Shown one piece after another: positions 5,861 to 23,991 of a stretch of DNA of 64,000 bases. Positions within the stretch are counted from its first letter, which is position 1; every line of letters starts with the position of its first letter. This stretch comes from Solirubrobacteraceae bacterium (GTDB lineage Bacteria > Actinomycetota > Thermoleophilia > Solirubrobacterales > Solirubrobacteraceae), in assembly GCA_025449845.1 (NCBI GenBank), contig JANWIP010000017.1:124001-188000 (forward strand), in the 5' to 3' direction. Made by a program: the position numbers and the translations under genes. A model generated the notes under the pieces. That model was given only the letters and a program-made list of their open reading frames with translations, did not search any database and was not told the DNA's origin.

Positions 5861-7012
5861 TCAGGGCGCGTGCTGGTAGGCGTAGAAGGCCGGCTTGGGC
5901 ACGCCTTCGGCGCTCATCAGCCCCTCGGTCAGATAGCCGGGAATCGACGGCGGCTCATCAAGCAGCTCAAACCAACCCAGCCCCACCACGTAGTTCACCG
6001 AATCCACGAGCTTGAAGGCGGCGGTGGCCCATGCCGCCTGCTGTGGGCGGCTGACGAAGAACCAGAAGGCCCGGTCGGTGTGGTCGCTTGAGATGGAGAA
6101 CTCCGACAGCCACAGCTTGGGCGTGCCGCCGCGTTGCCCGCGATAGGTGGCGGCGAGTTCGGAGTGCAGCGTGTCGATGTCGTTGATGTCGCGCACTTTG
6201 GCTTCATAGAGACCTTCGGAGAGTTTGGGAAAGCGAGTGGAGTACGGGTTGTGGCCGAAATAGTCAAGCCGCGGGGGCTTCCCGTTGGGCAGGCGCATCC
6301 AGCGGATGAAGTCTGAAGGGGAGTCCAGGCCGATCGTGTAGGTCATGCCGCCGATCACGACGTTGGCCGGGTTGACGGCCTTCAGCGCTCCGTAGGCGGC
6401 GTTGAGCAGCAGCGCGTAACGTTGCGGCCCCACGGGCGAGTTTTCGGGCATCGGATTGAAGTTGCCCGGACGCTCGGGCTCGCCCCAGATCATCCAGTAG
6501 CGCACGCTCGGATAGCGGCGGCTGGCGGCGGCGAGGAAATTGGCGTAGTCGGCGGCGTTTTCGGGCGCCCATGATGGGTCCCGACCTCCGTTTGACCACG
6601 CTGGTGATCCCCGCACCATCACCGCCATCTGGATGTGGTACTGGGCGGCCTGGCTGATCGCCTGTTGCAGCGCCGCCGGCCACTGGTAGGACGGATCGGC
6701 CGGGTTGGTGGGGTCACCGGGGCGCTGCGGCGCAGTGGCTGCCCAACTGAGCTGGGTCTCCAGCACCTGCACGCCAAGCTGGTGGTAGACGGGAAAGGCC
6801 GAGGAGCCATTGGGCATCGTAAATGGCCCCCAGATCATTTTCAGTGGCAAAGCCTTGCGTGGCTTGGCATGTCTGTGCTTGTGCCTGTGCGCCTTGACCC
6901 TCGCCTGGTGAACACTCCCGCCGCTTGCCGGGGGCACCGCGACCAGCGCCAGACTCACCGCTATTGCCAAGGCCGCGGCAGGCGCCACGCTTAGCTGCCG
7001 GCGCTGCTTCAG
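5861..7012 (-). CDS. Secreted clan GH-A-type glycoside hydrolase, paralog 1
   Basis: About 383 residues with a signal peptide (KQRRQ, then an Ala/Leu/Val core, processed near PASGG), a His/Lys-rich linker and a TIM-barrel domain resembling GH39/PslG-type hydrolases. The presumed acid/base is Glu178 in YWMIWGEPERPGNFNP and the nucleophile Glu304 in KLWLSEFSISS. The residue before the acid/base is Gly instead of the Asn usual in clan GH-A. CTG at 7012 overlaps the stop of the sugar transferase (CTGA) and gives a proper basic signal-peptide start; GTG at 6988 is the alternative. Paralogs lie at 12927-14057 and 22879-23991. It may trim or release the exported polysaccharide. Confidence 0.78.
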   Translation of the reverse strand: MKQRRQLSVAPAAALAIAVSLALVAVPPASGGSVHQARVKAHRHKHRHAKPRKALPLKMIWGPFTMPNGSSAFPVYHQLGVQVLETQLSWAATAPQRPGDPTNPADPSYQWPAALQQAISQAAQYHIQMAVMVRGSPAWSNGGRDPSWAPENAADYANFLAAASRRYPSVRYWMIWGEPERPGNFNPMPENSPVGPQRYALLLNAAYGALKAVNPANVVIGGMTYTIGLDSPSDFIRWMRLPNGKPPRLDYFGHNPYSTRFPKLSEGLYEAKVRDINDIDTLHSELAATYRGQRGGTPKLWLSEFSISSDHTDRAFWFFVSRPQQAAWATAAFKLVDSVNYVVGLGWFELLDEPPSIPGYLTEGLMSAEGVPKPAFYAYQHAP

Positions 7013-7860
7013 CTGCCGGCGCTGCTGGCGATCGCGAAGATCAATACCAGCACCGTGCAGGTGCTGAGCAGCAGGCCGGCCTCGACGCGGCGTACCTGGG
7101 GGTCGCCGGCTGTGCGCTTGGCGACCTTGGCGATCGGCACCACCATCGTCTGCGCAAGGATCTTCAGGTCGCCCCATAGCGTGCGCGTGTGAATATAGTT
7201 CAAATCGATTTCGATCTTGCGCGGCATGATCGACTCCTCGTAGAACCTCACGGGGTCGTCCTGCAGGCTGAGCAGGTGTGACTCGCTCGCGTACTCCACG
7301 GCCGCCGGCCCCGTGATGCCAGGCAGAAAGCTCAAGAGCTCCTTGTACTCCTCGGCGAAGCGCTCCACGAACTCTGGCACCTCGGGGCGGGGTCCGACCA
7401 GGTGCATATCGCCCTTGATGACGTTCCACAGCTGGGGCAGCTCATCGAGCTTGGTCATCGCCAGGAAGCCTCCGATCGGCGTGAAGCGCTCGTCCTCGCC
7501 GATCGTCAGTGGCCCGCCGCGCGCGCTGCGTCGCATCTTGCGGAACTTGAGCATCTTGAAGGGGTGCCCTTCGCGGCCCACGCGCGTGGAGCGGTAGAAG
7601 ACCGAGCCGGGCGAGTCGATGAAGATCAGCAGCGCCGTGATCGCGCCCACCATCAACACCGGCAGCAGCACCAGCAGGCAGATCGTGAGGTCGAACGCCC
7701 TCAGCGCCAGCGCGTGATGTGCCCGACCGATACCGCGAGCACCGCCGATACCGCGACCGGCGCGAGACGGCTCGGGGCTGAGCCGCTCGCGGGTCGCGTG
7801 GCGCAGAGTGCTCTCCTGAGCGATTTCCTGGGGTGCGCTTGGGAAAGCCGACATGGTCAT
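7009..7860 (-). CDS. Initiating sugar transferase (bacterial sugar transferase family, WcaJ/PglC-like)
   Basis: About 283 residues. This monotopic phosphoglycosyltransferase family moves a sugar-1-phosphate from a nucleotide sugar onto undecaprenyl phosphate, the first committed step of polysaccharide assembly. Seen are a membrane helix (FDLTICLLVLLPVLMVG), KMLKFRKMR, then TKLDELPQLWNVIKGDMHLV with GPRPE, and FLPGITGPAAV. An extra C-terminal hydrophobic segment (LLSTCTVLVLIFAIA) is unusual. ATG at 7860 has AAGGA five bases upstream; ATG at 7899 is also possible. It runs into the GH-A paralog with a 4-base overlap, so the two are probably cotranscribed. Confidence 0.88.
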   Translation of the reverse strand: MTMSAFPSAPQEIAQESTLRHATRERLSPEPSRAGRGIGGARGIGRAHHALALRAFDLTICLLVLLPVLMVGAITALLIFIDSPGSVFYRSTRVGREGHPFKMLKFRKMRRSARGGPLTIGEDERFTPIGGFLAMTKLDELPQLWNVIKGDMHLVGPRPEVPEFVERFAEEYKELLSFLPGITGPAAVEYASESHLLSLQDDPVRFYEESIMPRKIEIDLNYIHTRTLWGDLKILAQTMVVPIAKVAKRTAGDPQVRRVEAGLLLSTCTVLVLIFAIASSAGS

Positions 7861-7922
7861 CCGGGTCCTTGTCTTGTCGTGGTCATGCGACGAGGGCATG
7901 GTCTCCTGCCGCGGCTGAAGGC

Positions 7923-7947
7923 GTGTGATTATTGGGTGAAGCCTTTT
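7923..7947 (-). promoter_or_regulatory. Possible promoter/operator element shared with 22798-22835
   Basis: On the plus strand this reads TGTGATTATT, a short gap, then GTGAAGCCTTTT. A near copy, TGTGATTATT then GTGAAAGCCGCTTTT, lies upstream of the glycosyltransferase starting at 22773. Both copies sit on the upstream side of minus-strand polysaccharide genes, so a common promoter or regulator site is plausible. The spacing between halves differs (2 versus 13 bases), which weakens the case. Confidence 0.3.
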
Positions 7948-8016
7948 CGGTGCTGAGATATAGGTCACACGCTCTTCACAAGCCTCCAAGGCGCCAGGCT
8001 TAGCGTTGCCTCGGCG

Positions 8017-9042
8017 ATGCGCGCGCTCGTCACCGGCTGCGCGGGCTTCATCGGCTCGCACCTCACTGAGGCCTTGCTCGACGCCGGGCATTCGGTCGTT
8101 GGCATCGACTGCTTCAACGACAACTATGGGCGCGCGCAGAAGCTCGCCAACCTGCGGCAGGTGCGCGAGTGGACGAACTTCGAGTTCGTGCCGATCGACC
8201 TCAGCCGCGGCGACCTGACGGAGTTCGTGGAGTCCGCCGGGGTCGTATTTCATCTGGCTGCCGAGCCTGGCGTGCGCTCGAGCTGGGGCACACGCTACGG
8301 CAGGTACGTGCAGAACAACATCGTGGCCACCCAGCACATCCTGCAGGCCGGCCGGGGCAGAGAGGATCTGCGGATCGTGTTTGCCTCCTCTTCTTCGGTT
8401 TACGGCAGCGCCACGCCGGGCGTGCCCAGCACCGAGGGATCGCCCACGCGGCCCATCTCGCCCTACGGGCAGACGAAGCTGAGCGCCGAGCAACTGTGCG
8501 GGCTGCATCGGGCGGAGCTCGGCATGGACATCGTGTGCCTGCGCTACTTCACCGTCTTCGGCCCGCGCCAGCGGCCTGACATGGCGTTTCACCGTTTCCT
8601 GCGCGCGGCGCTGCTCGAAGAGCCGATCGAGGTATTTGGCGACGGTCGGCAGACACGCGACTTCACCTATGTGCAGGACGTCGTCGCCGCTACCTTGGCG
8701 GCGGCCAGTGGGCCGAGCCTGCCGGTGGAGGTGCTCAACATCGGCGGCGGCTCGCCGACTAGCCTGCGGGCGGCGCTTGAGATCGTGCAGGAGCTGACGG
8801 GGCGTACGCTGGAGATCAATCACGCGCCCCGCGAGCACGGCGACGCGCGCGATACCGCCGCCGACACCACGCTAGCGCGAGAGTTGCTGGGCTTTGCGCC
8901 ACAGACCGGGCTCGAGCAGGGATTGCAGGCGGAGCTTGACTGGCTCGCACCGCTCGTACATGAGGGTGGCTCTGTGCGGGATGGCAGCGTGGCACGGGTC
9001 AGTGATGTGGCGCAGGTCGGCGACGTGGCGGTGATCTCATGA
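8017..9042 (+). CDS. NAD-dependent epimerase/dehydratase (UDP-sugar 4-epimerase-like)
   Basis: A 341-residue extended short-chain dehydrogenase. It has the N-terminal NAD site TGCAGFIGSHL, the catalytic Ser region FASSSSVYGSATPG and the YGQTK active-site Tyr/Lys. The stretch CFNDNYGRAQKLANL resembles UDP-glucuronate 4-epimerases, so it probably makes an activated hexuronate or hexose for the polysaccharide. The last residues are a low-complexity tail. ATG at 8017 is divergent from the sugar transferase. The stop overlaps the next epimerase (ATGA), indicating coupled translation. Confidence 0.85.
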   Translation: MRALVTGCAGFIGSHLTEALLDAGHSVVGIDCFNDNYGRAQKLANLRQVREWTNFEFVPIDLSRGDLTEFVESAGVVFHLAAEPGVRSSWGTRYGRYVQNNIVATQHILQAGRGREDLRIVFASSSSVYGSATPGVPSTEGSPTRPISPYGQTKLSAEQLCGLHRAELGMDIVCLRYFTVFGPRQRPDMAFHRFLRAALLEEPIEVFGDGRQTRDFTYVQDVVAATLAAASGPSLPVEVLNIGGGSPTSLRAALEIVQELTGRTLEINHAPREHGDARDTAADTTLARELLGFAPQTGLEQGLQAELDWLAPLVHEGGSVRDGSVARVSDVAQVGDVAVIS

Positions 9043-9953
9043 GAGTGCTGGTGACTGGGGCGGCCGGCTTGATTGGCCGGGTGAGCATGCGGCTGTTGGA
9101 GCAGAGCGGGCACGAGGTACTCGGCACCGATCTGCATCCCTGCCCCGCAGGTCTTGCGGACCTGTCCTGGCGGCGACTGGACATACGGCGGGGAGAGCAG
9201 GTGCGGGAGACGCTCGCGGCCTCCAGGCCTGAGGCCGTCGTGCACCTCGCCGCCAGGCACTTCATCCCCTGGTGCGAGCGCTTCCCGGCGGCGACGCTGC
9301 ATACCAACGTGGTGGGGTCTCAGAACGTGATCGAGGGAGTGCTGGAGGCGGGCGCGAGAAAGCTGGTGTTCGCCTCCTCCGCTGCCGTCTATGGCTCTTC
9401 GCCACGAGCGCTCAATGAGACTTCGCCGCTGGGGCCCGATGATGTCTATGGGACCTCCAAGGTCATGGGCGAGCAGCTTGTGAAGCTCGCCCGCGGGCGC
9501 GGTGCGGGGTTTGACGCGGTGCTGCTGAGACTGTTCAACACGATCGGGCCGGGCGACGGCAATCCCCATCTCCTGCCACGCCTGCTGGCGGAGCTGCGCG
9601 GCGGTGGCGAGCAGGTGCGGCTGGGCAACCTCGACAGCGTCCGCGACTATGTCTTCGTCGAAGATGTTGCCCGCGCGATCGTGGCCGCGGTTGAGCGCGA
9701 TCTGCCGGGCTTGAACGCTGTCAACGTCGGCAGCGGCCAAGGACGCTCGGTGCAAGAGGTGGTGCGCGCGCTGGCAGAGCAGGTCGGGCGTGAGCTGCGG
9801 ATCGTCTCGGTCTCGACGCGGCGCCGGGCGGTGGACAGGCCTTTCCTGGTGGCGGACACGAGTCGGGCAGGGGCGCTGCTCGGTTGGGAGCCCTTGGTGT
9901 CCTTCGAGCAAGGACTTGCCCGCACGCTGCACGCCGAGCTGGTGGCGGCATGA
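9039..9953 (+). CDS. NAD-dependent epimerase/dehydratase
   Basis: A 304-residue extended SDR with MRVLVTGAAGLIGRVSMRLL at the NAD-binding start, FASSAAVYGSSPRALNE at the active-site loop and the YGTSK catalytic pair. The family includes UDP-glucose 4-epimerases and related 4,6-dehydratases or reductases; the exact substrate cannot be told. The ATG overlaps the stop of the preceding epimerase by four bases, and the next glycosyltransferase begins 7 bp after its stop. The three are therefore one operon dedicated to precursor supply and transfer. Confidence 0.85.
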   Translation: MRVLVTGAAGLIGRVSMRLLEQSGHEVLGTDLHPCPAGLADLSWRRLDIRRGEQVRETLAASRPEAVVHLAARHFIPWCERFPAATLHTNVVGSQNVIEGVLEAGARKLVFASSAAVYGSSPRALNETSPLGPDDVYGTSKVMGEQLVKLARGRGAGFDAVLLRLFNTIGPGDGNPHLLPRLLAELRGGGEQVRLGNLDSVRDYVFVEDVARAIVAAVERDLPGLNAVNVGSGQGRSVQEVVRALAEQVGRELRIVSVSTRRRAVDRPFLVADTSRAGALLGWEPLVSFEQGLARTLHAELVAA

Positions 9954-9960
9954 GTCACGC

Positions 9961-11166
9961 ATGAGCAGGACGCGGGTGCTTTTGGCGGGCGACTTCCCCG
10001 AGCGTCCGCCGATGACGGTTGGCGGAATCCAGGCGGTGACCTGGCAACTCGCCAGCGGCCTGGCCGGCATCGGCGAGTTCGACATCCATGCCGTGGCCTG
10101 CGAGCGCTTCTGGCGCGTGCCACCCCGCCGGCGCTGGCGCAGTAACTGGGGGGGATGCACGGCGCACTATCTGCGCACGCCGCGACTGCTCCCGCACGTG
10201 GTGTCCTCCTGGACGAGCGACGCCGAGTACGTGCGTCACGAGATCCGCGCGACCCGGGCTCAGCTGGTGCACGCGCACGGGCAGGTGGGCTACACGATCG
10301 GGGCGATCCGCAGCGGCCTGCCGCACGTGGTCACCCCCCACGGGATGCTGCTGCACGAGAAGCACGCCCCGGCCGGCGCAGGTGCCTTCAGCTGCGATCG
10401 TCTGCGCCAGACGCTGTGGAGCGCCACGGAGGCCTGGTGTCTGGCCCACGCCAAGCACATGGTCGTGATCAGCCCCTATGTGCGCAAGCTGATCGCGCCG
10501 CGCACGAACGCCCAGCTGCACGACATCCCCAACCCCGTCGACCCTAGCTTCATGGCGCTGGAACGCACCGCGGCAACCGAGCAGGCGGAGTCCTCTGCTC
10601 CCGTGCTGCTGAGCGTCGGCTGGCTGAACGCGCGCAAGCGCCAAGAGCTGATCGTGCGCGCGCTGCCGCTGGTACGCGAGCGCGTGCCGGGTGCACGCTT
10701 GCGCATCGTTGGCAACGTCGAGGCGGGTGATGCTCAGCAGTCAGAGCAGCTACGCAAGCTCGTGGCAGAGCTTGGCGTGGGGGAGGCGGTGGAGATACTC
10801 AGCGGACTCTCCCACGATGAGCTGCTGCAGGAGTATCGGCAAGCGAGTGTATATGTGCATGCCGCCGTGGAGGAGAGCTCGCCGATGGCCGTGGCGCAGG
10901 CGATGGCGGCGGGGGTCGCGCTGTGCGCGGTGGACATCCCTGGACTTCACCATCTGCTGGTGGAAGGCAGCACGGGCATTTACGCGCACGAGGCTACTCC
11001 CTGTGCGTTAGCCGATGCAATTGTGAAAATAATTAACAATCCCTGGCTGGCGCAGATGCTGGGCGCCAAGGCGCGTAAGCAGGCGCAGGCGCGTTTTCAC
11101 CCGTCGGTTGTGGCAAGCGCCACAGCCGATCTGTACCGTGCGGTGCTGGTCGAGGCGAGACGGTAG
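9961..11166 (+). CDS. Family 4-type glycosyltransferase
   Basis: A 401-residue GT-B enzyme starting MSRTRVLLAGDFPERPPMTV. The middle has LVHAHGQVGYTIGAI. The donor half has VLLSVGWLNARKRQELIVRAL and ASVYVHAAVEESSPMAVAQA (the E-x7-E type nucleotide-sugar site). It probably adds a sugar to the lipid-linked repeat unit. ATG at 9961 lies 7 bp after the epimerase stop, in an operon with both epimerases. An AT-rich patch (11020-11045, encoding IVKIINN) stands out from the surrounding GC-rich sequence but is in frame. Confidence 0.87.
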   Translation: MSRTRVLLAGDFPERPPMTVGGIQAVTWQLASGLAGIGEFDIHAVACERFWRVPPRRRWRSNWGGCTAHYLRTPRLLPHVVSSWTSDAEYVRHEIRATRAQLVHAHGQVGYTIGAIRSGLPHVVTPHGMLLHEKHAPAGAGAFSCDRLRQTLWSATEAWCLAHAKHMVVISPYVRKLIAPRTNAQLHDIPNPVDPSFMALERTAATEQAESSAPVLLSVGWLNARKRQELIVRALPLVRERVPGARLRIVGNVEAGDAQQSEQLRKLVAELGVGEAVEILSGLSHDELLQEYRQASVYVHAAVEESSPMAVAQAMAAGVALCAVDIPGLHHLLVEGSTGIYAHEATPCALADAIVKIINNPWLAQMLGAKARKQAQARFHPSVVASATADLYRAVLVEARR

Positions 11167-11201
11167 CCTGCTCGCGGTCTAGACAGGGATGTGAAAGGGC
11201 G

Positions 11202-11792
11202 ATGACAGACTCAACTGTGACTCTCCGTGAGATCGGTGCTCTGCTGCGCCGCCGCGCTGGCACGATGCTTGTGGTGCTACTGGTGGCACTCGCGCTGGGC
11301 GTTGTCCTGGCGGCGACCCACGGCAAGCGCTACCAGTCCCAGGCCAAGGTGGTCCTGACGCCGGTGCTGGGTAAGAACCTGACGTTCATACCCGCCCAGG
11401 AAAGCTTGCAGGCGCTGATCAATGCCTATGCCGAGACGGCACGCTCAGCGGCGACGGTCGCAGCCGCGCGCCAAGCGTTGGGCCGTGCTCTCGAAGGTAC
11501 TGTCACGACCTTTACACAGGCGGGCGATGACAGCATCACCCTGTCCTCGACCGCAAAGTCGCCAAGTATCGCTCAGCAAGACACCACGGCTCTGCTGCGC
11601 GTCTTTCAGACCTCGATGCAGGGCAATACGTTCTTCACCGTCAGCGTCATCTCACCCCCTTCACTGCCCACGCGGCCGATTCAGCCGCGCCCGCCCTTGA
11701 TCATCGGCGCAGCGGTGATCCTGGGACTGATATTGGGCTTCATGCTTGCGCTCATGGTCGACTACGTTCGGCGTGAGCCTGTTCTTGCTTGA
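11202..11792 (+). CDS. Wzz-type chain-length/polysaccharide co-polymerase protein
   Basis: A 196-residue membrane protein with the Wzz/YveK layout: a short cytoplasmic start (TLREIGALLRRRAG), a first helix (TMLVVLLVALALGVVLAAT), an external domain starting YQSQAKVVLTP, the Pro-rich segment PTRPIQPRPPL and a second helix (IIGAAVILGLILGFMLALMVDY). The family sets polysaccharide chain length together with a Wzy polymerase. It lacks a Wzc-type kinase domain and no such kinase is nearby. The external domain (about 125 residues) is short. The ATG has AAAGGG just upstream. The 3' end overlaps the next glycosyltransferase by 20 bp. Confidence 0.8.
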   Translation: MTDSTVTLREIGALLRRRAGTMLVVLLVALALGVVLAATHGKRYQSQAKVVLTPVLGKNLTFIPAQESLQALINAYAETARSAATVAAARQALGRALEGTVTTFTQAGDDSITLSSTAKSPSIAQQDTTALLRVFQTSMQGNTFFTVSVISPPSLPTRPIQPRPPLIIGAAVILGLILGFMLALMVDYVRREPVLA

Positions 11793-12945
11793 CGAGCAGC
11801 CGATCCGCGTGACCCACGTCATCGCCGGGCTGGAGTTGGGCGGCGCGGAGATGATGCTGTGCAAGCTGCTCAGCGCCAGCGATCGTCAGCGCTTTGAGCC
11901 TTCGGTGATCTCACTGTCCACGTTTGGGCCACTGGCCCCCCGGATCGCCGCGATGGGGGTGCCGGTCAGCGCCCTCGGCATGAGCCGTGGACGCCTGGAG
12001 CTGCGTCCCTTGGGGCGTCTCGCACGGCGCCTGGCGAGCGGGCGTCCGCATGTGGTTCATACCTGGATGTATCACGCGGACCTCCTGGGTGGGGCTGTGG
12101 CGCGGGCGACCGGCGAGGCGAAGGTGATCTGGGGTGTACGCGGCAGCCTCGACCCCAAGCTGAGCAAGCGCAGCTCGCGGATGACCGCGCGGGCCTGCGG
12201 CGCGACCGCGCGGTGGCTGCCCGATCGCGTCGTGTCCTGCTCAGAGCGCCTAGCCGAGATGCACATCGAGCTCGGCTACGACCGAGCGCGCATGATGGTC
12301 ATCCCCAATGGCTTTGACCTCTCCTGGTTTCGGCCCGATGGAGTGCTGCGCGCGCAAGGGCGCCGTTGGCTGGGCGTTGGCACGCAGGAGCTACTGGTGG
12401 GGATTGTGGGGCGCTATGACCCGCAGAAGGACCACTCCACCTTCGTGCGCGCCGCGGCGGAGATTTTGCGTAAGCGCCCAGAAGTACGCCTGGTGATGTG
12501 TGGCCCAGGGGTCGATTCGGGCAACCAGGAGCTCGTGACGCAGCTCTCGCAAGCGGGCATCCGGGAGCGTGCTCTGCTGATGGGGGTGGCGCAAAATCCG
12601 CGCGTCGTGCTCAACGCCCTCGACGTGCTCGTCTCCTCCTCGGCCTACGGCGAGGGCTTTCCCAACATCCTCGGCGAGGCGATGGCGTGTGGCGTGCCGT
12701 GTGTCACCACCGACGTGGGCGACGCCGCGAGAATCGTGGGCGACACGGGCGGCGTGGTGGCGGTCGGCGACTGGCGGGCGCTGGCGCACGAGGTGCTGGC
12801 GCTGTTGAACATGGGGCCAGAGGCTCGTGCGGCACAGGGCGACAGGGCGCGAGCGCGGATCGAGCGCAACTACTCGCTGCCGCGGATCGCCGACAGATTT
12901 CAGGAGCTCTACCTGGAGCTCTGTACTCAGCGCGCCTTGGCGTAG
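11773..12945 (+). CDS. Family 4-type glycosyltransferase
   Basis: About 390 residues, GT-B fold. The start region VTHVIAGLELGGAEMMLCKL is typical of GT4 enzymes. HTWMYHADLLGGAVAR follows. The donor half contains GIVGRYDPQKDHSTFVRAA and SAYGEGFPNILGEAMACGVP, a clear nucleotide-sugar binding site. GTG at 11773 overlaps the Wzz-like gene by 20 bp; GTG at 11809 is an alternative. The end overlaps the convergent GH-A paralog 2 by 19 bp. It is the last gene of the plus-strand run that begins at 8017. Confidence 0.87.
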   Translation: MSLFLLDEQPIRVTHVIAGLELGGAEMMLCKLLSASDRQRFEPSVISLSTFGPLAPRIAAMGVPVSALGMSRGRLELRPLGRLARRLASGRPHVVHTWMYHADLLGGAVARATGEAKVIWGVRGSLDPKLSKRSSRMTARACGATARWLPDRVVSCSERLAEMHIELGYDRARMMVIPNGFDLSWFRPDGVLRAQGRRWLGVGTQELLVGIVGRYDPQKDHSTFVRAAAEILRKRPEVRLVMCGPGVDSGNQELVTQLSQAGIRERALLMGVAQNPRVVLNALDVLVSSSAYGEGFPNILGEAMACGVPCVTTDVGDAARIVGDTGGVVAVGDWRALAHEVLALLNMGPEARAAQGDRARARIERNYSLPRIADRFQELYLELCTQRALA

Positions 12946-14057
12946 GCGTAAAACGCCGGCTTGGGCTCACCGCTTGAGCTCATCAATCCCTCGGTGAGGT
13001 GTTCGTGAACGCTGGCGGGCTCGTCCAGCAGCTCATACCAGCCCAGGGCGGCCACGTAAGGCAGCGAGTTGACGAGGCTAAACGCCGCCGTCACCCACTT
13101 GGCCTGGACTGGCTGGCTGACATAGAAGTCAAAGGCACGGCTAGGGGCATCGCTTGAGATCGAGAACTCCGACAGCCACAGCTTTGGCGTTGGCCCATGG
13201 CCGGCATAGTCCTGCGTCAGTTCCTGCTCGATCGTGTCGATGTCGTTGATGTCGCGCACCGCCGGCGAATAGGTCGGCGCTGACAGCTTGGGGTAGCGCG
13301 TGGAGTAGGGGTTATCGCCATAGAAGTCCATCCGCGGTGGTGCTCCGTCGGGCAGACGCAGCCAACGCAGGTAATCGCCCATCGTCACGGCGCCGAGGGT
13401 GTAGGTCATGCCACCAATCACCAGGTTTGCGGGATTGACCGCCTTCAGTGCTCCATAGGCTTCATCGAGCAGTACGGCGTAGCGCTGGGGGCCCACCGGC
13501 GAGTTGGCGGGCATCGGGTTGAAGTTGCCCGGCCGCGTCACCTCACCCCAGATCATCCAATAGTGGATCGTGGGGTAGCGACGGCTGGCGGCCTGCAGGA
13601 AAGCCGCGTAGTCAGCCGGTTCGTTGGGCGCCCATGAGGGGTCCTGGCCGCCGTTGGCCCAGCCGGGGGTCTCCTTGACCATCAACGCCAGGCTAATGCC
13701 GTAGCGGCCGGCTTCGCTGACCGCCTGATCCATCGCGGCCGGCCAGTGATACGCGGGGTCCGCCGGATTGCTCGCGTCGCCCGGCCGCGTCGGAGCCGTG
13801 GCGGTCCAGCTCAACTGCAGTTGCAGCACCTGCACGCCGAGCCGCTGGTAGACGGGGAAGGCCGAGGAGCCATTTGGCATCGTCAGGGGGCCCCACATCA
13901 TCTTCAACGTGGAGTTCTTCAGCGCGTGGCCCTTGCTCCTGCGGGTATGCCTGTGGCGGGCGTGGGCGCGGTGGTGTCCGCGGGCGCTTGCCATCGCCAC
14001 CGGGGCGATTATCAGGAGCGCCGCGGCAATCAGGACCATCAGTGCGCGTCTGGGCAT
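12927..14057 (-). CDS. Secreted clan GH-A-type glycoside hydrolase, paralog 2
   Basis: A 376-residue secreted protein close to the products of 5861-7012 and 22879-23991. The signal peptide MPRRALMVLIAAALLIIAPV ends near AMASA and is followed by a His/Arg-rich linker (about 26-47). The barrel starts at LKMMWGPLTMPNGSSAFPVY. The presumed acid/base is Glu172 in YWMIWGEVTRPGNFNP, with Gly instead of Asn before it, and the nucleophile is Glu297 in KLWLSEFSISS. The end EGLMSSSGEPKPAFYAYAK is shared by all three paralogs. Its likely role is trimming the locus polysaccharide outside the membrane. The substrate is unknown. Confidence 0.8.
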   Translation of the reverse strand: MPRRALMVLIAAALLIIAPVAMASARGHHRAHARHRHTRRSKGHALKNSTLKMMWGPLTMPNGSSAFPVYQRLGVQVLQLQLSWTATAPTRPGDASNPADPAYHWPAAMDQAVSEAGRYGISLALMVKETPGWANGGQDPSWAPNEPADYAAFLQAASRRYPTIHYWMIWGEVTRPGNFNPMPANSPVGPQRYAVLLDEAYGALKAVNPANLVIGGMTYTLGAVTMGDYLRWLRLPDGAPPRMDFYGDNPYSTRYPKLSAPTYSPAVRDINDIDTIEQELTQDYAGHGPTPKLWLSEFSISSDAPSRAFDFYVSQPVQAKWVTAAFSLVNSLPYVAALGWYELLDEPASVHEHLTEGLMSSSGEPKPAFYAYAKAR

Positions 14058-14132: not shown

Positions 14133-15332
14133 TCACATTTTTGCCCGCACGAGGATCAAGCCCGTGTGCGGGGCCATTGTGGCTGTCGCAGCCGAGCGCA
14201 GCCCGTCGCCTGAGTAGCGTCCTCTAAGTCTGACGGTATGCCGCCGCGCTGTAGGGTTGACCAGCACCAGGCCGCGCGAGAAGCGCCGTCGGTACACGCC
14301 CGAGGGCTGCCGGTGGGCAGAGTCGAGCGGCTGGCCGATCGGCGCTTCATAGTCAGGGAACCAGGTTTCCACGCCGTAGTTGGCGTCGTTCTGGAGCGCG
14401 AACGTGGCATGACCGCCGGAGCCCAGCAGCATCGTGGCCCAACCGAAGCGCTCGGCCCGCGTGTCGCGGTCGCTGGACTGCGTAATGCCGATGAACCACT
14501 TGCGCTGTCGCTGGACCTGCTGCAGGATTGAAAGCTCCTCACTCCATTCCGCGTTCGTGCGGTAGCCCTGTCCGCGGGCGGGGGTGAACTTGGCGAAACG
14601 CTCGTCCATCGCTCCGTCCAGGTAGCGCAGCCAGCGCGTCGCCGTCGCCCGGTAGTTGGGCCACGAGCCGATGTTGGCCATCGCCAGCTTGCCGGCCGCG
14701 TGTATTCGCGGCACGATGTGCGCCAAGGCAGAGGTGACGGCCGTCGCGTAGGCCTTGTCGCTCGGGTACCTGGCGACGTCTGTGGGGTCGTGGTAGTAGC
14801 GGATCGTGGGATTGACGTTGTCCATGAACACGCCATCCCAGCCTTGCGCCTTTAGTTCGTGCACCACCTCGCCAGCCCACGCTCGCTGAAAGCCGCGGTT
14901 GCCGATGTCCATCGCCCACAGATAGGGGAAGCCGAAGCAGCGGATCGGCTGGCCCGCGCGGTTGCGCAGCAGCCACGCGGGGTGCTGAGCGAGAGCCTGC
15001 GCGTAGCCGACGCCATCGGTGCTGAGCCCGTCGACGGGCTCATAGCTGCTGGCGTTGCCCAGGTCCTTGTACTCGAGCACGATCAGTCGTGGGTTGGAGG
15101 CCTTGAGCCGGTGCAACAGCTCCTGTTGCCAGGGCAGCAGGATCACCACACGGCTGCGCAGGGCCGTCAGCGACGGGTCCGGCCAGGCCCCTTCGGGGCG
15201 GATTGCATAGCGCACGTGCCCTGCCGTCGTCGCCGTGCGCCAGGTCGCCGGGCGCGACGGGGCCGCCGAGCCGATTGAGATCGAGCCCGCCAGGCAGCTG
15301 GCAAGAGTCAGTGCAAGCGTCAGGCGGCGCAT
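14133..15332 (-). CDS. Secreted putative glycoside hydrolase, GHL15-like
   Basis: A 399-residue secreted protein with signal peptide MRRLTLALTLASCLAGSISI ending near GSAAPS. The body resembles the hypothetical glycosyl hydrolase family 15 (GHL15). It has LIVLEYKDLGNASSYEPVDG, then GWDGVFMDNVNPTIRYYHDP, where the Asp residues are candidate catalytic groups, and MANIGSWPNYRAT. Such proteins have a TIM-barrel related to GH66/GH114-type enzymes. It is followed on the same strand, after 75 bp, by GH-A paralog 2, so both may be expressed together. Activity is not established for the family as far as I know. Confidence 0.72.
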   Translation of the reverse strand: MRRLTLALTLASCLAGSISIGSAAPSRPATWRTATTAGHVRYAIRPEGAWPDPSLTALRSRVVILLPWQQELLHRLKASNPRLIVLEYKDLGNASSYEPVDGLSTDGVGYAQALAQHPAWLLRNRAGQPIRCFGFPYLWAMDIGNRGFQRAWAGEVVHELKAQGWDGVFMDNVNPTIRYYHDPTDVARYPSDKAYATAVTSALAHIVPRIHAAGKLAMANIGSWPNYRATATRWLRYLDGAMDERFAKFTPARGQGYRTNAEWSEELSILQQVQRQRKWFIGITQSSDRDTRAERFGWATMLLGSGGHATFALQNDANYGVETWFPDYEAPIGQPLDSAHRQPSGVYRRRFSRGLVLVNPTARRHTVRLRGRYSGDGLRSAATATMAPHTGLILVRAKM

Positions 15333-15429: not shown

Positions 15430-15906
15430 ATGAGAAAGGACGCTCTTCTGAGGGGCTCACTCCTGGTGCTGGCGCTGGCCGTGATCACGCCGCTCGCGGC
15501 CACCTCCCCCTCCTCTTCTTTTTCCCCCCCTTCAACGGCGTCCAGCGCGGTATTTGCCGAAAACCGCTCTCAACCCCAGAAGCTGACGGTGAAAGCCCAC
15601 GGCTACTACCGCAGCGTGTCGCTTCACAACCTCCAGTGGGCCAACTGGGGCCAGCCAACGGCCACCGCTCGTGGCACCTTCACGTTCCAATTCTGCGTGC
15701 ACGAAAGCTGCTCGGTGTCACCTTTCTACGACGAGCCCGTCTCGCTGATGCTGACCCAGATCAAGTCTTGCCGCGCACGGCTGTCCTACACCGTGCTCAC
15801 ATTCAACGTTGAAGGCCCGCTCCCGGATCAGAGCTTCAAGTCCTACCGGACGAGCCTCGGGGTCTGCCGGCCGCCAAGCTCAGGCGGGCACCGAAGACAC
15901 CGATGA
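15430..15906 (+). CDS. Secreted protein of unknown function
   Basis: About 158 residues. MRKDALLRGSLLVLALAVIT is a good signal peptide, followed by a Ser/Pro-rich stretch and a small domain with four Cys (FQFCVHESCSV, KSCRARLS, GVCRPPS) that may form two disulfides. I do not recognise a family. The ATG at 15430 was chosen because it starts the signal peptide. It is divergent from the GHL15-like gene, and its last 71 bp overlap the convergent flippase. The position suggests an accessory secreted factor of the polysaccharide locus. Confidence 0.6.
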   Translation: MRKDALLRGSLLVLALAVITPLAATSPSSSFSPPSTASSAVFAENRSQPQKLTVKAHGYYRSVSLHNLQWANWGQPTATARGTFTFQFCVHESCSVSPFYDEPVSLMLTQIKSCRARLSYTVLTFNVEGPLPDQSFKSYRTSLGVCRPPSSGGHRRHR

Positions 15907-17377: not shown

Positions 17378-17388
17378 ATGATGGCCTC

Positions 17389-18288: not shown

Positions 18289-19459
18289 ACCACAGCGGTG
18301 TGCTGAGCTGCGCACTGAAGAAGATCCCCCCGATCAGAGCCACGATGAAGGAGGCCAGGAAGGCGCTGCGCAGCCAGTTGCCGGGTGCCCGTGGGTCCTC
18401 TCTGGCTCCTGGGTAAGCGGTTGCTATCAGGATCTGGCGCCCGGTTGCCACCAAAAAGCCGAGGAAGAGCAACAGGGCAATCGCGCCGTCTTCGCTGAGG
18501 ACTCCCAAGTAGGTGTTGTTGACCGCCACTTCGTGCTCGAGCTTGGGGGTATTGCGCACATAGCCCGGACTCACCGCTTCAAAGCGTCCCGGGCCGATGC
18601 CGAGCAAGGGATGGTTGGTGCTCATGCGCACCGCCGCCGACCAGTAGACCTGGCGCAGGCTCACGCTGCTGCTGAGGCCGTTCTGGCGAACTTTTAGGTT
18701 CTGCGAGGTCCTTGCGCTTGAGAGCCCCAGCGCCAGCACCGCCATCAGCGCCACGGCCGCGAGTCCGCCCAGCAGCAGCCTGGGGGCCACGCGTCGGGTG
18801 AGAATCGCCCACAGAGCAGTTACCCCAAGGGCGAGGAACGCGCCCCGCGAGGAGGAGCCCAGGATGCCGAGCGCCAGGCAGGCGAGGCCCGTGCCCCACA
18901 GCCAGCGCCGCTGCGGCTCCCTCATGAACAGATAGGCCACGAACGGCAGCACCGCGGCAAGGAAGTAGGCGAAATCGTTGGGGTCGCTGATCGGTCCCGA
19001 CGCCCGCGCGACGCTGCCATCGAGGAACTGAACCGTCGCCCACGCCGCTCCCACGATCGCCGAGACGCATAGCACGCGCAACGCCTGCATGAAGACCTCG
19101 CGGCTGTCGATCATTTGCACAACCAGGAAGAGGAACAGCGTGAGTGTCCAGTAGCGCAAGGTTTCGGAGATGCTCACCGGGCTCAGTCCGCTGGCCACGA
19201 GTGACAGCGTGGCCACCGTGCACAGCAGCGCTGCCCAGGCGATTGGTGGTGTGAACCGCAGCGGCCTGTCGTGTAGCAGCGTGGCCAGCAGCACCGAGAT
19301 GAACAGCAGCGCCCCGACCAGCTTGACGATCGTGATGCTGTGCGTGGGAAAGCGCAGGGCTCCTTGCCAGGGCAGCAGTGCGATCAGCACCAGCATGAAA
19401 AAGCGGGTGTCGGGGCGCAGAGAGCGGGTGTCGGGGCGCAGGGAGCTGTTGTCAGACAT
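18152..19459 (-). CDS. O-antigen ligase/polymerase-type membrane protein
   Basis: About 435 residues with some 11-12 membrane segments and the Wzy/WaaL family loop: SISETLRYWTLTLFLFLVVQ, GSSSRGAFLALGVTALWAIL, then NHPLLGIGPGRFEAVSPGYV and VNNTYLGVLSEDGAIALLLF. It is a second enzyme of this type in the locus; the one at 28-2112 has a TPR tail and this one does not. ATG 19459 or ATG 19468 can start it. A 7-residue repeat SLRPDTR occurs twice just after the start, from a 21-bp duplication. The C-terminal tail is antisense to a methyltransferase. Confidence 0.8.
   Translation of the reverse strand: MSDNSSLRPDTRSLRPDTRFFMLVLIALLPWQGALRFPTHSITIVKLVGALLFISVLLATLLHDRPLRFTPPIAWAALLCTVATLSLVASGLSPVSISETLRYWTLTLFLFLVVQMIDSREVFMQALRVLCVSAIVGAAWATVQFLDGSVARASGPISDPNDFAYFLAAVLPFVAYLFMREPQRRWLWGTGLACLALGILGSSSRGAFLALGVTALWAILTRRVAPRLLLGGLAAVALMAVLALGLSSARTSQNLKVRQNGLSSSVSLRQVYWSAAVRMSTNHPLLGIGPGRFEAVSPGYVRNTPKLEHEVAVNNTYLGVLSEDGAIALLLFLGFLVATGRQILIATAYPGAREDPRAPGNWLRSAFLASFIVALIGGIFFSAQLSTPLWFIAAFASALALLPADERSSAPYARAPSARRVGRAARGDIAPTPGW
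19403..19444. repeat. 21-bp tandem duplication inside the start of the O-antigen ligase-type gene
   Basis: Two adjacent copies, 19403-19423 and 19424-19444, differ at one of 21 bases. In frame they give SLRPDTR twice. This is a young in-frame duplication, next to another duplicated segment (19451-19532). Confidence 0.9.
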
Positions 19460-19532
19460 GCGGGGCATCAAGCAGGGGCTGAAACATCAGGTGTCAAACA
19501 TGCGGGGCATCGAGCCAGGACTGGAACATCAA
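19451..19532. repeat. 42-bp-period duplication of the asparagine synthase 3' end
   Basis: Segments near 19451-19490 and 19493-19532 align over 39 bases with about six differences. The right copy encodes the last codons of the asparagine synthase-type gene (MFQSWLDAPHV, stop). The left copy would encode MFQPLLDAPHV followed by a stop. It lies between this gene and the downstream O-antigen ligase-type gene and supplies that gene's start codon. Confidence 0.85.
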
Positions 19533-21449
19533 CACGGGCCACAAGCGTCGATGCCAGTTGCGCTGGCCAGACAGATGCTCGTGCCAATGTCGCATGATGA
19601 CGGATGGCTCGAGAAAGCCCTCGGCGGCCAGGCGCTCGGGGGCGAGCATGTCTTCTGCCCAGCCTCGCAACGGCCCCCTCAGCCAGTCCGCCAGCGGCAC
19701 TTCGAAGCCCCGCTTGGGTCGCTCCACGAGCTCGCGCGGCACATAGCGGTAGAGAATCTCGCGCAACGGGCGCTTTTCCATACCCCCGACACGCATCTGC
19801 TCCGGAACCATGCGCCACGCCAGTTCGACCACGCGGTGGTCTAGTAGAGGTACCCGCGCCTCGAGGCTCGCCGACATGCTTGCCCGGTCCACTTTCGTGA
19901 GGATGTCATCCGGCAGGTAGGTGAGGGAATCCGCCAGCGCCATCCGACCTACTCTGTCTCGCCCTGTGACTGCCTCGTTGGCCACCGCGAACATCGGGTT
20001 GATGGCGTAATCCGCGCCGAGCACCGGCGGATCAAGCCAGCAGGCGACCAGTCGCTCATACAGGCGCTCGGATTCGAGTGTGCCAGTGCCAGTGCGGCCT
20101 GTGCCGCCAGCGATCTCGGCGAGCTTCAGCAGACGGTCACCGGCCAGCTCGTGCGCGGGTGCTCCGAGGATCGCCCCCAGCCGATTGACGGGCTCCAGCG
20201 GCAACTGCCGTACGAGTGCTGCCAGGTTGTGGCGGACGCCGAGGGGGAATCGTCCCAGCGACCTCTGCATGAGCTCAGCCCAGCGGTAGCGAGGGTAGCC
20301 ACGGAACAGCTCATCGCCGCCGTCACCGGCGAATGCGACCGTGACGTGCCTGCGCGCCAGGCGGGCGATCAACAGCGTGGGGATGATGGCTGGGTCGGCG
20401 AACGGCTCATCGCATACGCTGGCGAGTTGGGGCACAGCGTCTAGGGCATCGCCGCCGCTGAGGCGCAGTTCGGTGTGCTCGCACTCCAGGTGTGCGGCTA
20501 CCGCGGCGGCGTGATTGGCCTCGTTGAAAGCTGGGTCCTCAAAGCCCACCGAGAACGTGCGCACCGCTCCTGTGCCGTAGTGGCGCATGAGGGCCACCAG
20601 TGTGGATGAGTCCACCCCCCCCGAGAGCAGCGCGCCGAGCGGCACATCTGCCGCGAGGCGCAGGCGCACCGCATCGCCCAGCAGCTCGTGCAGCTCATCC
20701 TCGTCGCCTGCGCCTGCGCCCGTGGTCGTCCCCGCCGCACGTGCAACCTCGGCGAGCGACCACCAGGGAGTCGGCTTGAGGTGCTCGCAGGCGTTGGCGT
20801 CGATCCTCAGCAGTTGGCCCGCCCCCAGCTTGGCGACCCCCTCGAGGATCGAGTTGGGAGCCGGTACATAGCCGTAGCGCAGGTGCGCCGCCAGCGCTGC
20901 CCGGTCGACCCGCTCGCGTAGCTGAGGATGACGACGAATGGCGCCAAGCTCTGAGGCGAACACGATGTGGGCGCCGACCCTGCCGTAGTAGAGCGGCTTC
21001 TCGCCGAGCCTGTCGCGCGCGAGTGTCAGCGTGCGCTCATGGCGATCCCACAGGGCAAAGGCGAACATGCCGTTGCAGCGGCCGAGGGTCTCGTGCAAGC
21101 CCCACGTCTCGATGCCCGCCAGCAGCACCTCGGTGTCGCCGTGACCGGCGAAGCGCACGCCCGCGCGCTCGAGCTCGGGTCGCAGCCGCTTGAAGTTGTA
21201 GATCTCACCGTTGTAGGTGAGCACATAGCGTCCCGCGGCGGAGATCATCGGCTGGTGGCCCGCTTGTGAGAGGTCAAGCACCGCCAGGCGGCGATGGCCG
21301 AGCGCGATGCCGGCGCTTGGTTCGGCCCACTGCCCCGAGTCGTCAGGACCTCGGTGGCGCAGGGCGTCTGTCATGCGGGCAACCACCTGCGCCAACTCGT
21401 GGCCATTGGTGGTTGCCTTGGGGTCGAAGATGCCGGCGATCCCGCACAA
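19494..21449 (-). CDS. Asparagine synthase (glutamine-hydrolysing) type amidotransferase
   Basis: About 651 residues. The N-terminal class II glutaminase starts LCGIAGIF, so the TTG at 21449 makes Cys2 the N-terminal nucleophile after Met removal. RHRGPDDSGQW, LGHRRLAVLDLSQAG and YNGEIYNF follow. The C-terminal synthetase domain has the ATP pyrophosphatase motif SGGVDSSTLVALM (about 275-287) and FAGDGGDELFRGYPRY. In polysaccharide loci such AsnB-like proteins often amidate uronic acids or other carboxylates instead of making asparagine; that use is an inference from context. It lies 28 bp downstream of the glycosyltransferase at 21478. Confidence 0.88.
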   Translation of the reverse strand: MCGIAGIFDPKATTNGHELAQVVARMTDALRHRGPDDSGQWAEPSAGIALGHRRLAVLDLSQAGHQPMISAAGRYVLTYNGEIYNFKRLRPELERAGVRFAGHGDTEVLLAGIETWGLHETLGRCNGMFAFALWDRHERTLTLARDRLGEKPLYYGRVGAHIVFASELGAIRRHPQLRERVDRAALAAHLRYGYVPAPNSILEGVAKLGAGQLLRIDANACEHLKPTPWWSLAEVARAAGTTTGAGAGDEDELHELLGDAVRLRLAADVPLGALLSGGVDSSTLVALMRHYGTGAVRTFSVGFEDPAFNEANHAAAVAAHLECEHTELRLSGGDALDAVPQLASVCDEPFADPAIIPTLLIARLARRHVTVAFAGDGGDELFRGYPRYRWAELMQRSLGRFPLGVRHNLAALVRQLPLEPVNRLGAILGAPAHELAGDRLLKLAEIAGGTGRTGTGTLESERLYERLVACWLDPPVLGADYAINPMFAVANEAVTGRDRVGRMALADSLTYLPDDILTKVDRASMSASLEARVPLLDHRVVELAWRMVPEQMRVGGMEKRPLREILYRYVPRELVERPKRGFEVPLADWLRGPLRGWAEDMLAPERLAAEGFLEPSVIMRHWHEHLSGQRNWHRRLWPVLMFQSWLDAPHV

Positions 21450-21477
21450 GGCTAGGTGGAGGCTACTTTGTTGAAGC

Positions 21478-22773
21478 TCACCGCAGGGGAACCATGATCC
21501 GCGCATCTGGCGCGGTGTTCAACGCGCTGGCCGTGCCGAGCACTGGTTCCGCTAGCACTGGTTCCGTCTCAAGTACCGGTTCCGCCCGAGGCACTGGCGC
21601 GGCCACCAAGCTCTGGTAGATGCCAACGGTCTCGCGCACCATGCGCTCGGCATCGAACATCGCGCGATGGCGAGCGCGCGAGGCGATCCCGGCCGAGGCA
21701 CGCAACCGCGGTGAATCGACCATCCCAACGATCGCATCGGCCAGTGCGTCCGGCCGCTTGGGAGGAACGAGCTGCCCGGTCTCGCTGGTCACGGCCTCGA
21801 TTGTGCCGCCGACGTTGGTGACGACCTGCGGGACTCCCCACGAGAGCGCCTCCAGCACGCCCACCGGCATCGCCTCCCAAGCTGAGGACAGCACGTATAG
21901 GTCAAGGGCGCCCATGTAGCGCCCGCTGGGGGGTGTGAAAGGGAAGAACGCGAAGCGAGGATCGTCGCTCAGGCCCCTGGCGGCCGCACGCTCTTCGAGC
22001 TTGGCCTGCATCGGGCCGTTGCCGATGATCGCAAAGCGCGCCTGCGGGGTGCGTGCAAGCACTGTGGGGATCGCGTCGATCAAGACATCCAGGCGTTTTT
22101 GCTTGCGCAGTACGGAGACGGCGCCGATCAGCACCCCGTCGCCTTTGAAGTCCAGCAGCGCCTGCTCGGGGGTTGCATTCTCAAGCGGGTCGGGCGGGTC
22201 GGGGACGCCGTTATAGATGCGGTGAGTCCGCACGGCCGGGGCGAGCGCGAGTTTCAGGGCTGCACGTCGCTCTGCCTCGCATACGCACACATAGGCGGAT
22301 GTCAGCGGTGCCAGCAGGCGCTCGACTATGGCCGGGGCGATCCGTGAGAGCGCCCCCAGATCGCGCAGGAAGGCAAAGCAGTGGGGGCTGTAGACGACGG
22401 GGATGCCCCGTCGGGCTCCTACCAGCCGCCCGAGTACGCCGGCCTTGCTGGAGTGGCAGTGAATGACATCGACCGGATCGCGGGCGAGCATGCGGTCGAG
22501 GCTCCACAGTGCTTGCAGGTCGGCCAGGGGCGAACGCGATCCGCGCGTGAGGTGACTCATTGGCAGGTACTCAACGGCAGCCTGTTCCAGGCGCGCGCGG
22601 ATCGATGCCTGCTCGGGTCCGGCTACGTAAACGCTCCAGCCATGTCCCTCCATGGCCAGCGCAAGATTCAGCACGACCTCCGGAGCGCCACCGTCGGGTG
22701 GCTCGAACAGGAGCAGTGCTCGTGGCACCTCAGAAGCCCATCCCTCTGCCTGCCAGCGAACGCACGCCAGCAT
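21478..22773 (-). CDS. Family 4-type glycosyltransferase
   Basis: A 431-residue GT-B enzyme with ALLLFEPPDGGAPEVVLNLA at the start, VIHCHSSKAGVLGRLVGARR in the acceptor half and AVSVLRKQKRLDVLIDAI, then SSAWEAMPVGVLEALSWGVP in the donor half. The C-terminus has a short degenerate repeat (EPVLETEPVLAEPVL, from tandem copies of a roughly 10-20-bp unit near 21540-21600), unlikely to be part of the fold. ATG at 22773 is clear. An element shared with the sugar transferase upstream region lies 25-62 bp upstream. Confidence 0.87.
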   Translation of the reverse strand: MLACVRWQAEGWASEVPRALLLFEPPDGGAPEVVLNLALAMEGHGWSVYVAGPEQASIRARLEQAAVEYLPMSHLTRGSRSPLADLQALWSLDRMLARDPVDVIHCHSSKAGVLGRLVGARRGIPVVYSPHCFAFLRDLGALSRIAPAIVERLLAPLTSAYVCVCEAERRAALKLALAPAVRTHRIYNGVPDPPDPLENATPEQALLDFKGDGVLIGAVSVLRKQKRLDVLIDAIPTVLARTPQARFAIIGNGPMQAKLEERAAARGLSDDPRFAFFPFTPPSGRYMGALDLYVLSSAWEAMPVGVLEALSWGVPQVVTNVGGTIEAVTSETGQLVPPKRPDALADAIVGMVDSPRLRASAGIASRARHRAMFDAERMVRETVGIYQSLVAAPVPRAEPVLETEPVLAEPVLGTASALNTAPDARIMVPLR

Positions 22774-22797
22774 GGTCGTCCCGGTAACTCGGACATA

Positions 22798-22835
22798 TGT
22801 GATTATTTCGGGATAATTATGTGAAAGCCGCTTTT
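22798..22835 (-). promoter_or_regulatory. Possible promoter/operator element shared with 7923-7947
   Basis: The AT-rich stretch between the GH-A paralog 3 stop and the glycosyltransferase start contains TGTGATTATT and GTGAAAGCCGCTTTT, matching the upstream region of the sugar transferase. It stands out in the GC-rich surroundings. A separate promoter for the glycosyltransferase-asparagine synthase run is plausible. Confidence 0.3.
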
Positions 22836-22878
22836 ACCGAGCAACTGGCTCCCGGCAGATTGCTCACGGGGCGGCGGC

Positions 22879-23991
22879 TCACGGGGCGGCGGCATATGCG
22901 TAGAAGGCTGGCTTGGGTACGCCGCTCGCGCTCATCAGCCCCTCGCTGAGGCGGCCGCTGCTGGAGTTCGGTTCATCCAGCAGCTCATACCAACCCATGG
23001 CGGCTACGTAGGGCACTGAGTTGACAAGCTTGAAGGCTGCCGTGACCCAGCGAGCCTGCACAGGCCGGCTGACGTAGTAGTCAAAGGAACTGTTCGCGGC
23101 ATTGCTGATGCCAAACTCCGACAGCCACAGCTTGGGGGTATGACCGGGGTAAACGCCTGCCAGGCTGTGCTCAAGCGTGTCGATATCGTTGATGTCGCAC
23201 ACCAGCGGAGAAATGGGCTTCTCGGCCAGGTTGGGGTAGCGGATGGAGTAGGGGTTGTGGCCGTAGTAGTCCATGCGCGGCGGCCTGCCGTTCGCCAGAC
23301 GCATCCGGCGGATGAATTCGTAGGTCCCGATCGTCCCCGTGGAGTAGGTCATGCCCCCGATTACGGTGTTGGCGGGGTTGACGGCCTTCAGGGCGCCATA
23401 GGCGAGATCGAGCAGCGTGGCATAGCGTTCGGGGCCGACCTTCGAGTGTGGCGGCAGCGGGTTGAAGTTCCGGGTGCTGTTGACCTCGTTGAGGATCAAC
23501 CACAGGTGAACGCCCGGGTAGCGGCGACTGGCGGCCTGCACGAAGTCGGCGTAGTCCCGCGGGTTGGCGGGCACCCACGTGGGATCGCGGCCGCCGTTGG
23601 ACCAGGTGGGGAAGTCCTCCACCAGCAGCGCGATGGCGATGTGGTAGCGCTCCGCTTCACGCATCGCTCTGTCGAGATCGGCCGGCCAACGGTATGCCGG
23701 GTCTCCTGGGTCCGTTGGGCTGCGCGGGCGACTGCTGGCGACTGTGCTCCACGACAATTGCCGCTCCAGCACATTGACCCCAAGACGGTGATAGACAGGA
23801 AATCCTGAGGAACCATCGGGCATCGTGAGGGGGCCGTAGATGGCCTTCAGCGGCCTGGTCTCATGCACGCCGCTGGCGTTGGCCGTGGGTACGACAACAG
23901 TGGCGTGAGCAGTGGATGCCAGCAACGCGGGCACCGCACCGAGCAAGATGACCGCCAAACGTCTGCCGTTGGTGCGAGTTCGATGCTTCAT
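22879..23991 (-). CDS. Secreted clan GH-A-type glycoside hydrolase, paralog 3
   Basis: A 370-residue secreted protein, third of the paralogous set. The signal peptide (basic start MKHRTRTNGRR, core LAVILLGAVPALLAS) ends near AHA, without the His-rich linker seen in the other two. The barrel has LKAIYGPLTMPDGSSGFPVY. The presumed acid/base is Glu169 in LWLILNEVNSTRNFNP, here with the canonical Asn before it, and the nucleophile is Glu292 in KLWLSEFGISN. The C-terminus is EGLMSASGVPKPAFYAY. It is the copy that best keeps the expected active site, and may act on the polysaccharide exported by this locus. Confidence 0.8.
   Translation of the reverse strand: MKHRTRTNGRRLAVILLGAVPALLASTAHATVVVPTANASGVHETRPLKAIYGPLTMPDGSSGFPVYHRLGVNVLERQLSWSTVASSRPRSPTDPGDPAYRWPADLDRAMREAERYHIAIALLVEDFPTWSNGGRDPTWVPANPRDYADFVQAASRRYPGVHLWLILNEVNSTRNFNPLPPHSKVGPERYATLLDLAYGALKAVNPANTVIGGMTYSTGTIGTYEFIRRMRLANGRPPRMDYYGHNPYSIRYPNLAEKPISPLVCDINDIDTLEHSLAGVYPGHTPKLWLSEFGISNAANSSFDYYVSRPVQARWVTAAFKLVNSVPYVAAMGWYELLDEPNSSSGRLSEGLMSASGVPKPAFYAYAAAP

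Follow-up and report, generated by a model that had tools for sequence, protein, structure and literature searches.

In glycosidases of glycoside hydrolase (GH) clan GH-A, the acid/base Glu stands at the end of strand beta-4 and is directly preceded by an Asn, the nucleophile Glu stands on beta-7, and in most families of the clan an Arg on beta-2 lies near the nucleophile. Both this Arg and the Asn are regarded as all but invariant in the clan. For PslG of Pseudomonas aeruginosa, PMC11912335 gives Glu165 as the acid/base and Glu276 as the nucleophile, and describes a probe complex in which the ring in the -1 subsite (cyclophellitol) contacts Arg331, Asp332 and Asn164. Arg69 of a GH51 enzyme, which also belongs to this clan, appears to hold the nucleophile deprotonated, according to PMC4666033. 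The stretch analysed here, referred to as the window, comprises 64,000 nucleotides of the genome of a Solirubrobacteraceae bacterium (GenBank assembly GCA_025449845.1, contig JANWIP010000017.1; positions 124001 to 188000), and includes genes for three PslG-like paralogues, P1, P2 and P3. By alignment, the Asn is replaced by Gly in P1 and P2 and the beta-2 Arg is missing from all three, P3 with its Asn included, indicating that a set of residues has been lost and not the Asn alone.

A sequence-only reading of the window had placed three secreted paralogues with shared motifs at 5861-7012, 12927-14057 and 22879-23991, and the open reading frames (ORFs) and motifs were found at these coordinates, all on the minus strand. 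For P1, GTG 6988 is a likelier start than 7012, where the codon is CTG, and it yields a signal-peptide-like N-terminus. Each protein is a single domain of ~370 residues with an N-terminus judged by eye to resemble a signal peptide. Pairwise identity among the three is 60-65% (64% for P2 and 60% for P3 against P1 in a three-row alignment), and the ratio of non-synonymous to synonymous substitution rates (dN/dS) between them is 0.22-0.28, all dN/dS values given here being rough figures from a simple counting method. The acid/base motif is WMIWGE in P1 and P2 and WLILNE in P3, and the nucleophile motif KLWLSEF is common to all. The genes and residues concerned are:

5861..6988, minus strand: P1, WGE type, likely coding sequence from GTG 6988, with signal-peptide-like start, His/Arg-rich linker and PslG-like domain
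6482..6484, minus strand: P1 Gly177, codon GGC, at the clan GH-A Asn position by alignment to the PslG column
6479..6481, minus strand: P1 Glu178, candidate acid/base by PslG alignment
6101..6103, minus strand: P1 Glu304, candidate nucleophile by PslG alignment, in KLWLSEF
6758..6760, minus strand: P1 Glu85, in the column that holds the beta-2 Arg in the outgroup
12927..14057, minus strand: P2, WGE type, predicted to be secreted
13545..13547, minus strand: P2 Gly171, codon GGT, preceding the acid/base Glu172
13542-13544, 13167-13169 and 13821-13823, minus strand: P2 acid/base Glu172, nucleophile Glu297 and Gln79
22879..23991, minus strand: P3, LNE type, predicted to be secreted, Asn regained
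23488..23490, minus strand: P3 Asn168, codon AAC, preceding the acid/base Glu169
23485-23487, 23116-23118 and 23764-23766, minus strand: P3 acid/base Glu169, nucleophile Glu292 and Glu76

The best match in the PDB was PslG, with E values of 1.2e-8 for P1, 9.3e-5 for P3 and 2.2e-13 for a profile of the wider clade described below, bearing out the earlier proposal that the paralogues are PslG-like. In the HMMER profile alignment, which is gap-free over the motif, the Gly/Asn column corresponds to PslG Asn164 and the Glu that follows to Glu165, as expected from the WGE and LNE assignments of the sequence-only reading; PslG numbering is the chain index plus 26, consistent with the residues named in PMC11912335. 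Both catalytic Glu residues of the clan, at the end of beta-4 and on beta-7, are thus present in P1-P3 by alignment, and the Asn directly before the acid/base is found in P3 and not in P1 or P2. At the beta-2 Arg column, P1 has Glu, P2 has Gln and P3 has Glu, with an Arg in P3 one residue further along the same strand. Pfam Glyco_hydro_39 did not match P1-P3; the sole Pfam hit was DUF5722 (PF18989) at 11.1, 17.1 and 22.7 bits, under its gathering cut-off of 30.5 bits, and no NCBIfam model matched.

A profile of the three paralogues, with the threshold set at E 1e-10, had matches in 248 of 399 genomes of the class, and a close clade, defined at E 1e-60, was found in 41 of 232 genomes of the order, at 61 places in total. 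The clade spans several families of the class Thermoleophilia. No member was found outside that class in 396 genomes of the phylum, where matches were 4.5e-33 or weaker, and two of these that were read are of the WNE type. Residue states were read, in P1 numbering, from 64 clade rows including fragments. Position 177, before the acid/base Glu, is Gly, Ser or Ala in 58 of 63 readable rows (Gly 49, Ser 7, Asn 3, Ala 2, Asp 1, Pro 1). Arg is absent from all 59 rows at position 85, the beta-2 Arg column (Gln 29, Glu 19, Ser 5, Met 2, and Gly, Asn, Val and Ile once each), and position 257, the beta-6 Tyr column, is Phe in 47 of 61 rows, Tyr in 10, Trp in 3 and Met in 1. Two Arg columns are specific to the clade: R181, the third residue after the acid/base (E+3), with Arg in 52 of 64 rows and Lys in 5 more, and R260 in the beta-6 loop (53 of 61). 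P3 lacks the E+3 Arg. As the whole 64-row clade shows the pattern, WGE in P1 and P2 is not due to chance.

A wider outgroup of 107 rows in which the acid/base Glu aligned retains both Arg and Asn in 100 rows. The other seven read, at the Arg and Asn columns, R/S (twice), T/A, Q/A, H/S, T/N and a misaligned S/N, so that Asn is missing from 5 of 107 rows and Arg from 5, one of them misaligned. That last row, L103, was rejected as a case of beta-2 Arg loss; with it set aside, 3 rows have lost both residues, 3 have lost one and 100 keep both, and the T/A and Q/A rows, which make up two of the three joint losses, share a genome. These are L107/L182 and L225 of genome G005, which have WAEPN or WAEAN and, in place of the beta-2 Arg, Thr or Gln, and where the joint loss is apparently independent of that in the clade. 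The E304 column is Glu in 105 of 107 outgroup rows, the remainder being one gap and one Ala. A further column, position 62, where the outgroup has Asp and the clade has Gly, was dropped because it varies with the alignment.

A tree of 83 rows, built with nine active-site columns removed and six fragments excluded, recovered the clade (support 100/100), a P1, P2 and P3 group (100/94) and P2 with P3 (100/96), and a constraint moving P3 outside the clade was rejected (approximately unbiased (AU) test, p-AU 4.1e-5). As P3 is nested in the clade as the sister of P2, its Asn was regained; its AAC codon is at least two base changes away from the GGC and GGT of P1 and P2. Parsimony gave two changes between Arg and other residues at position 85, and four between Asn and other residues at position 177, the latter read as one basal loss in the clade, a loss in L107 and two regains, in P3 and in the L032/L133 pair. 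The reverse order, in which LNE was ancestral and WGE arose within the trio, was rejected by the tree and the AU test. The sequence-only reading had divided the paralogues into two types, and the Asn is indeed missing from two of the three; by the tree, however, the WGE pair follows the rule of the clade and LNE is the secondary state. As all three lack the beta-2 Arg, the types do not separate cleanly into normal and odd, though different substrates for the two are plausible.

The proposition that both Glu are always kept in the clade was rejected once rows from two genera, g14 and g15, had been read. E178 is kept in 62 of 63 clade rows, the sole exception being a frameshifted fragment, and E304 in 58 of 62, all four exceptions lying in g14; outside the two genera, neither residue was Asp or Gln in any row read. 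In g14, E304 has become Ser or Gln in four of five sister rows (positions 304/177: L030 Glu/Gly, L031 Ser/Gly, L034 Gln/Asp, L032 and L133 Gln/Asn), and all five have Thr at 260. In three g15 genomes, whose rows are outside the 64, a shortened relative has lost both catalytic Glu (WAIGDG, KLWLGP) and was placed inside the clade on a long branch in a quick tree. These relatives (L244:7847-8776, also L242 and L243) retain a shortened barrel that is conserved across the genomes. The dN/dS values, 0.11-0.33 for g14 pairs and 0.26 for g15, indicate purifying selection.

Copy number and integrity also vary. A small contig of genome G270 (contig 135; L042 and L181) carries a head-to-tail tandem array with five or six clade genes, and one further clade gene lies on another contig. 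Copies broken by frameshifts or stops were seen at L047:3932-4704, L039:2599-3738 and L051:934-2210, and are likely to be decaying genes (or assembly errors).

The three paralogue genes lie in an exopolysaccharide cluster, the other members of which are:

28..2112, plus strand: Wzy_C (O-antigen ligase/polymerase) and TPR protein
2727-4106 and 4353-5777, minus strand: two glycosyltransferases
7009..7716, minus strand: Bac_transf sugar phosphotransferase, C-terminal part of ORF 7009-8838, adjoining P1
8017..9953, plus strand: two NAD-dependent sugar epimerases/dehydratases
9943..12945, plus strand: glycosyltransferase, Wzz-like chain-length protein (11202-11792) and glycosyltransferase
14133..15332, minus strand: GHL15 hypothetical glycosyl hydrolase, adjoining P2
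15836-17377, minus strand: Wzx-like flippase
17389-18288, plus strand: methyltransferase
18152-19471, minus strand: Wzy_C
19494-21506, minus strand: asparagine synthase-like protein
21478-22773, minus strand: glycosyltransferase

The genetic context of clade genes elsewhere was examined in 20 neighbourhoods of 20 kb (one of 15.6 kb), picked for long contigs among the 61 places and searched with the window's own exopolysaccharide proteins. All 20 neighbourhoods had at least one match, compared with 3 of 20 control stretches from the same genome set (Fisher p 2.6e-8), the control locations being chosen by the investigator and the neighbourhoods not being independent (G364 and G107 contribute two each and g14 four). 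Glycosyltransferase matches occurred in 13 of 20 neighbourhoods and 2 of 20 controls, and sugar phosphotransferase matches in 2 of 20 of each. In the four g14 neighbourhoods, an adjacent epimerase was the only match and glycosyltransferases were not found. One of these, examined with Pfam (10 of 19 predicted genes), did not have the look of an exopolysaccharide locus, whereas two other neighbourhoods (10 genes each) did. At L150:8810-10848, a g14 locus, the clade gene forms a pair with a sugar epimerase gene in unrelated surroundings (a two-component system, COX15 and helicases). Within 16 kb of the g15 gene there are wzy-like, epimerase and dehydrogenase matches. The window's GHL15 protein (14133-15332) adds to the cluster a candidate polymer-cutting protein of another kind, and no relatives of it were found in the 20 clade neighbourhoods. 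A GDP-mannose dehydratase-like ORF at L136:10-1470 includes an internal LAGLIDADG-type segment, possibly an intein.

The reading favoured here, given about an even chance, is that P1-P3 are PslG-like glycosidases that process a polymer and have a rebuilt -1 subsite. Once secreted, P1-P3 would shorten the polymer produced by the Wzx/Wzy cluster around them or set it free, and both Glu would still function as nucleophile and acid/base. A small residue would have taken the place of the Asn, whose normal part is to bind the sugar 2-OH; the Arg that normally holds the nucleophile deprotonated would mostly have given way to Gln or Glu, and new Arg residues are present beside the acid/base and in the beta-6 loop. 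In the simplest mechanism, the small residue would free space for a C2 substituent (amino, methyl or a branch) on the -1 sugar and a relocated Arg would take over part of the former work. As the catalytic acids are kept and near-universal helper residues are lost, the clade probably cuts or holds an unusual sugar, and P3, in which the Asn is back and the E+3 Arg is gone, probably works on another residue of the polymer. This reading is preferred because of the retention of Glu outside two genera, the small residue at 177, the new Arg and the linkage to polymer loci; it rests on homology, residue states, the tree and gene context, from which we infer the activity, the substrate and what the new Arg do. 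Several points weigh against it. Joint loss of the Arg, Asn and Tyr is expected to cripple most known GH-A enzymes, and P3 has the Asn with no beta-2 Arg. The Glu losses under purifying selection in g14 and g15 indicate that the scaffold can serve without catalysis. Two AlphaFold models, each from a five-row alignment, had mean pLDDT (predicted local distance difference test) scores of 43.8 and 49.1, with strands 1-4 alone formed with any confidence; the acid/base motif is located at strand 4 in these partial models, and as both are poor, the location of R181 and R260 relative to the pocket is a guess.

The second most likely reading, though in itself unlikely, is that the whole clade consists of non-hydrolytic binders on a GH-A scaffold that hold or guide nascent exopolysaccharide, with the Glu kept as sugar contacts. 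The loss of three helper residues together fits this, as do the non-catalytic forms that the clade has yielded in g14 and g15 under purifying selection, in contrast to the near-constant E304 column of the outgroup. However, outside those genera the Glu pair is never replaced by Asp or Gln in the rows read, and the g14 genes without the nucleophile also lack nearby glycosyltransferases, as if catalysis and role had been lost together. A binding role for P1 and P2, raised in the sequence-only reading, is a live rival given that two other clade lineages have lost catalytic Glu, and it is not favoured because both Glu are nearly invariant in the clade. It is improbable that P1-P3 are ordinary PslG-like hydrolases doing the same job on an unchanged substrate, the Asn position simply being tolerant: both Glu are present in all three, identity among them is 60-65% and some outgroup rows lack Asn or Arg, but in the clade the change is fixed across several families, is nearly always to a small residue and comes with the Arg and Tyr changes and gained Arg. 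In the outgroup, three rows have lost both Arg and Asn and three just one of them, against 100 with both, though a single genome accounts for two of the joint losses. Least probable, and very unlikely, is action of P1 and P2 on a sugar with an acid or keto group (a uronic or ulosonic acid), in which the new Arg would grip a carboxylate and there would be no 2-OH to hold. R181 and R260 would suit such a substrate and the genome carries UDP-glucose/GDP-mannose dehydrogenase and NeuB-family genes; however, neither kind of gene was found in the window cluster, and dehydrogenase matches show no enrichment (2 of 20 clade neighbourhoods, 1 of 20 controls).

Returning to the rebuilt glycosidase, a fuller version extending to the whole clade is put forward tentatively, at somewhat under an even chance: a clan GH-A lineage that would still catalyse through its two Glu with the beta-2 Arg and the beta-4 Asn gone, and in most cases the beta-6 Tyr too. 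Arg residues at new positions and an emptied -1 site would accommodate a sugar rejected by ordinary GH-A enzymes, with g14 and g15 as non-catalytic polymer binders and P3 partly reverted. Literature on residue loss in clan GH-A and on DUF5722 yielded nothing about the clade, which was also absent among the matches listed for Solirubrobacter exopolysaccharide clusters, pseudoenzymes and Thermoleophilia glycoside hydrolases. A clade of exopolysaccharide loci that lacks both the beta-2 Arg and the Asn and retains both Glu, with intermediates (Gly, Asp and Asn; Glu, Ser and Gln), is a natural experiment on residue roles, and its proteins are candidates for enzymes or lectins that act on the polymers of soil Actinomycetota, a little-studied group.

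Among known systems, GH26 mannanases form a GH-A family with His instead of the Asn preceding the acid/base Glu, unlike the Gly of P1 and P2, and GH26 did not appear among the Pfam, PDB and clade-profile results for the paralogues, in scans not aimed at that family. GH39 beta-xylosidases and GH39wh2 (4ekj, 5jvk and others) have the same barrel and match more weakly than PslG. The nearest outgroup, the WNEPN-type Thermoleophilia relatives (alignment A5, 28 rows), has the same overall domain but differs from the clade in having Arg85, Asn177 and Tyr257 in 28 of 28 rows each. PslG (PDB 4zn2, 5bx9, 5bxa, 9g17 and 9g18) is the closest solved relative by sequence, and resembles P1-P3 in both aligned catalytic Glu and in the location of its gene within an exopolysaccharide cluster. 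However, the PslG motif is WNE (with Asn164) and its alignment shows the beta-2 Arg, where P1 and P2 have Gly and Glu or Gln, whereas P3 shares the Asn of PslG but carries Glu at the beta-2 Arg column.

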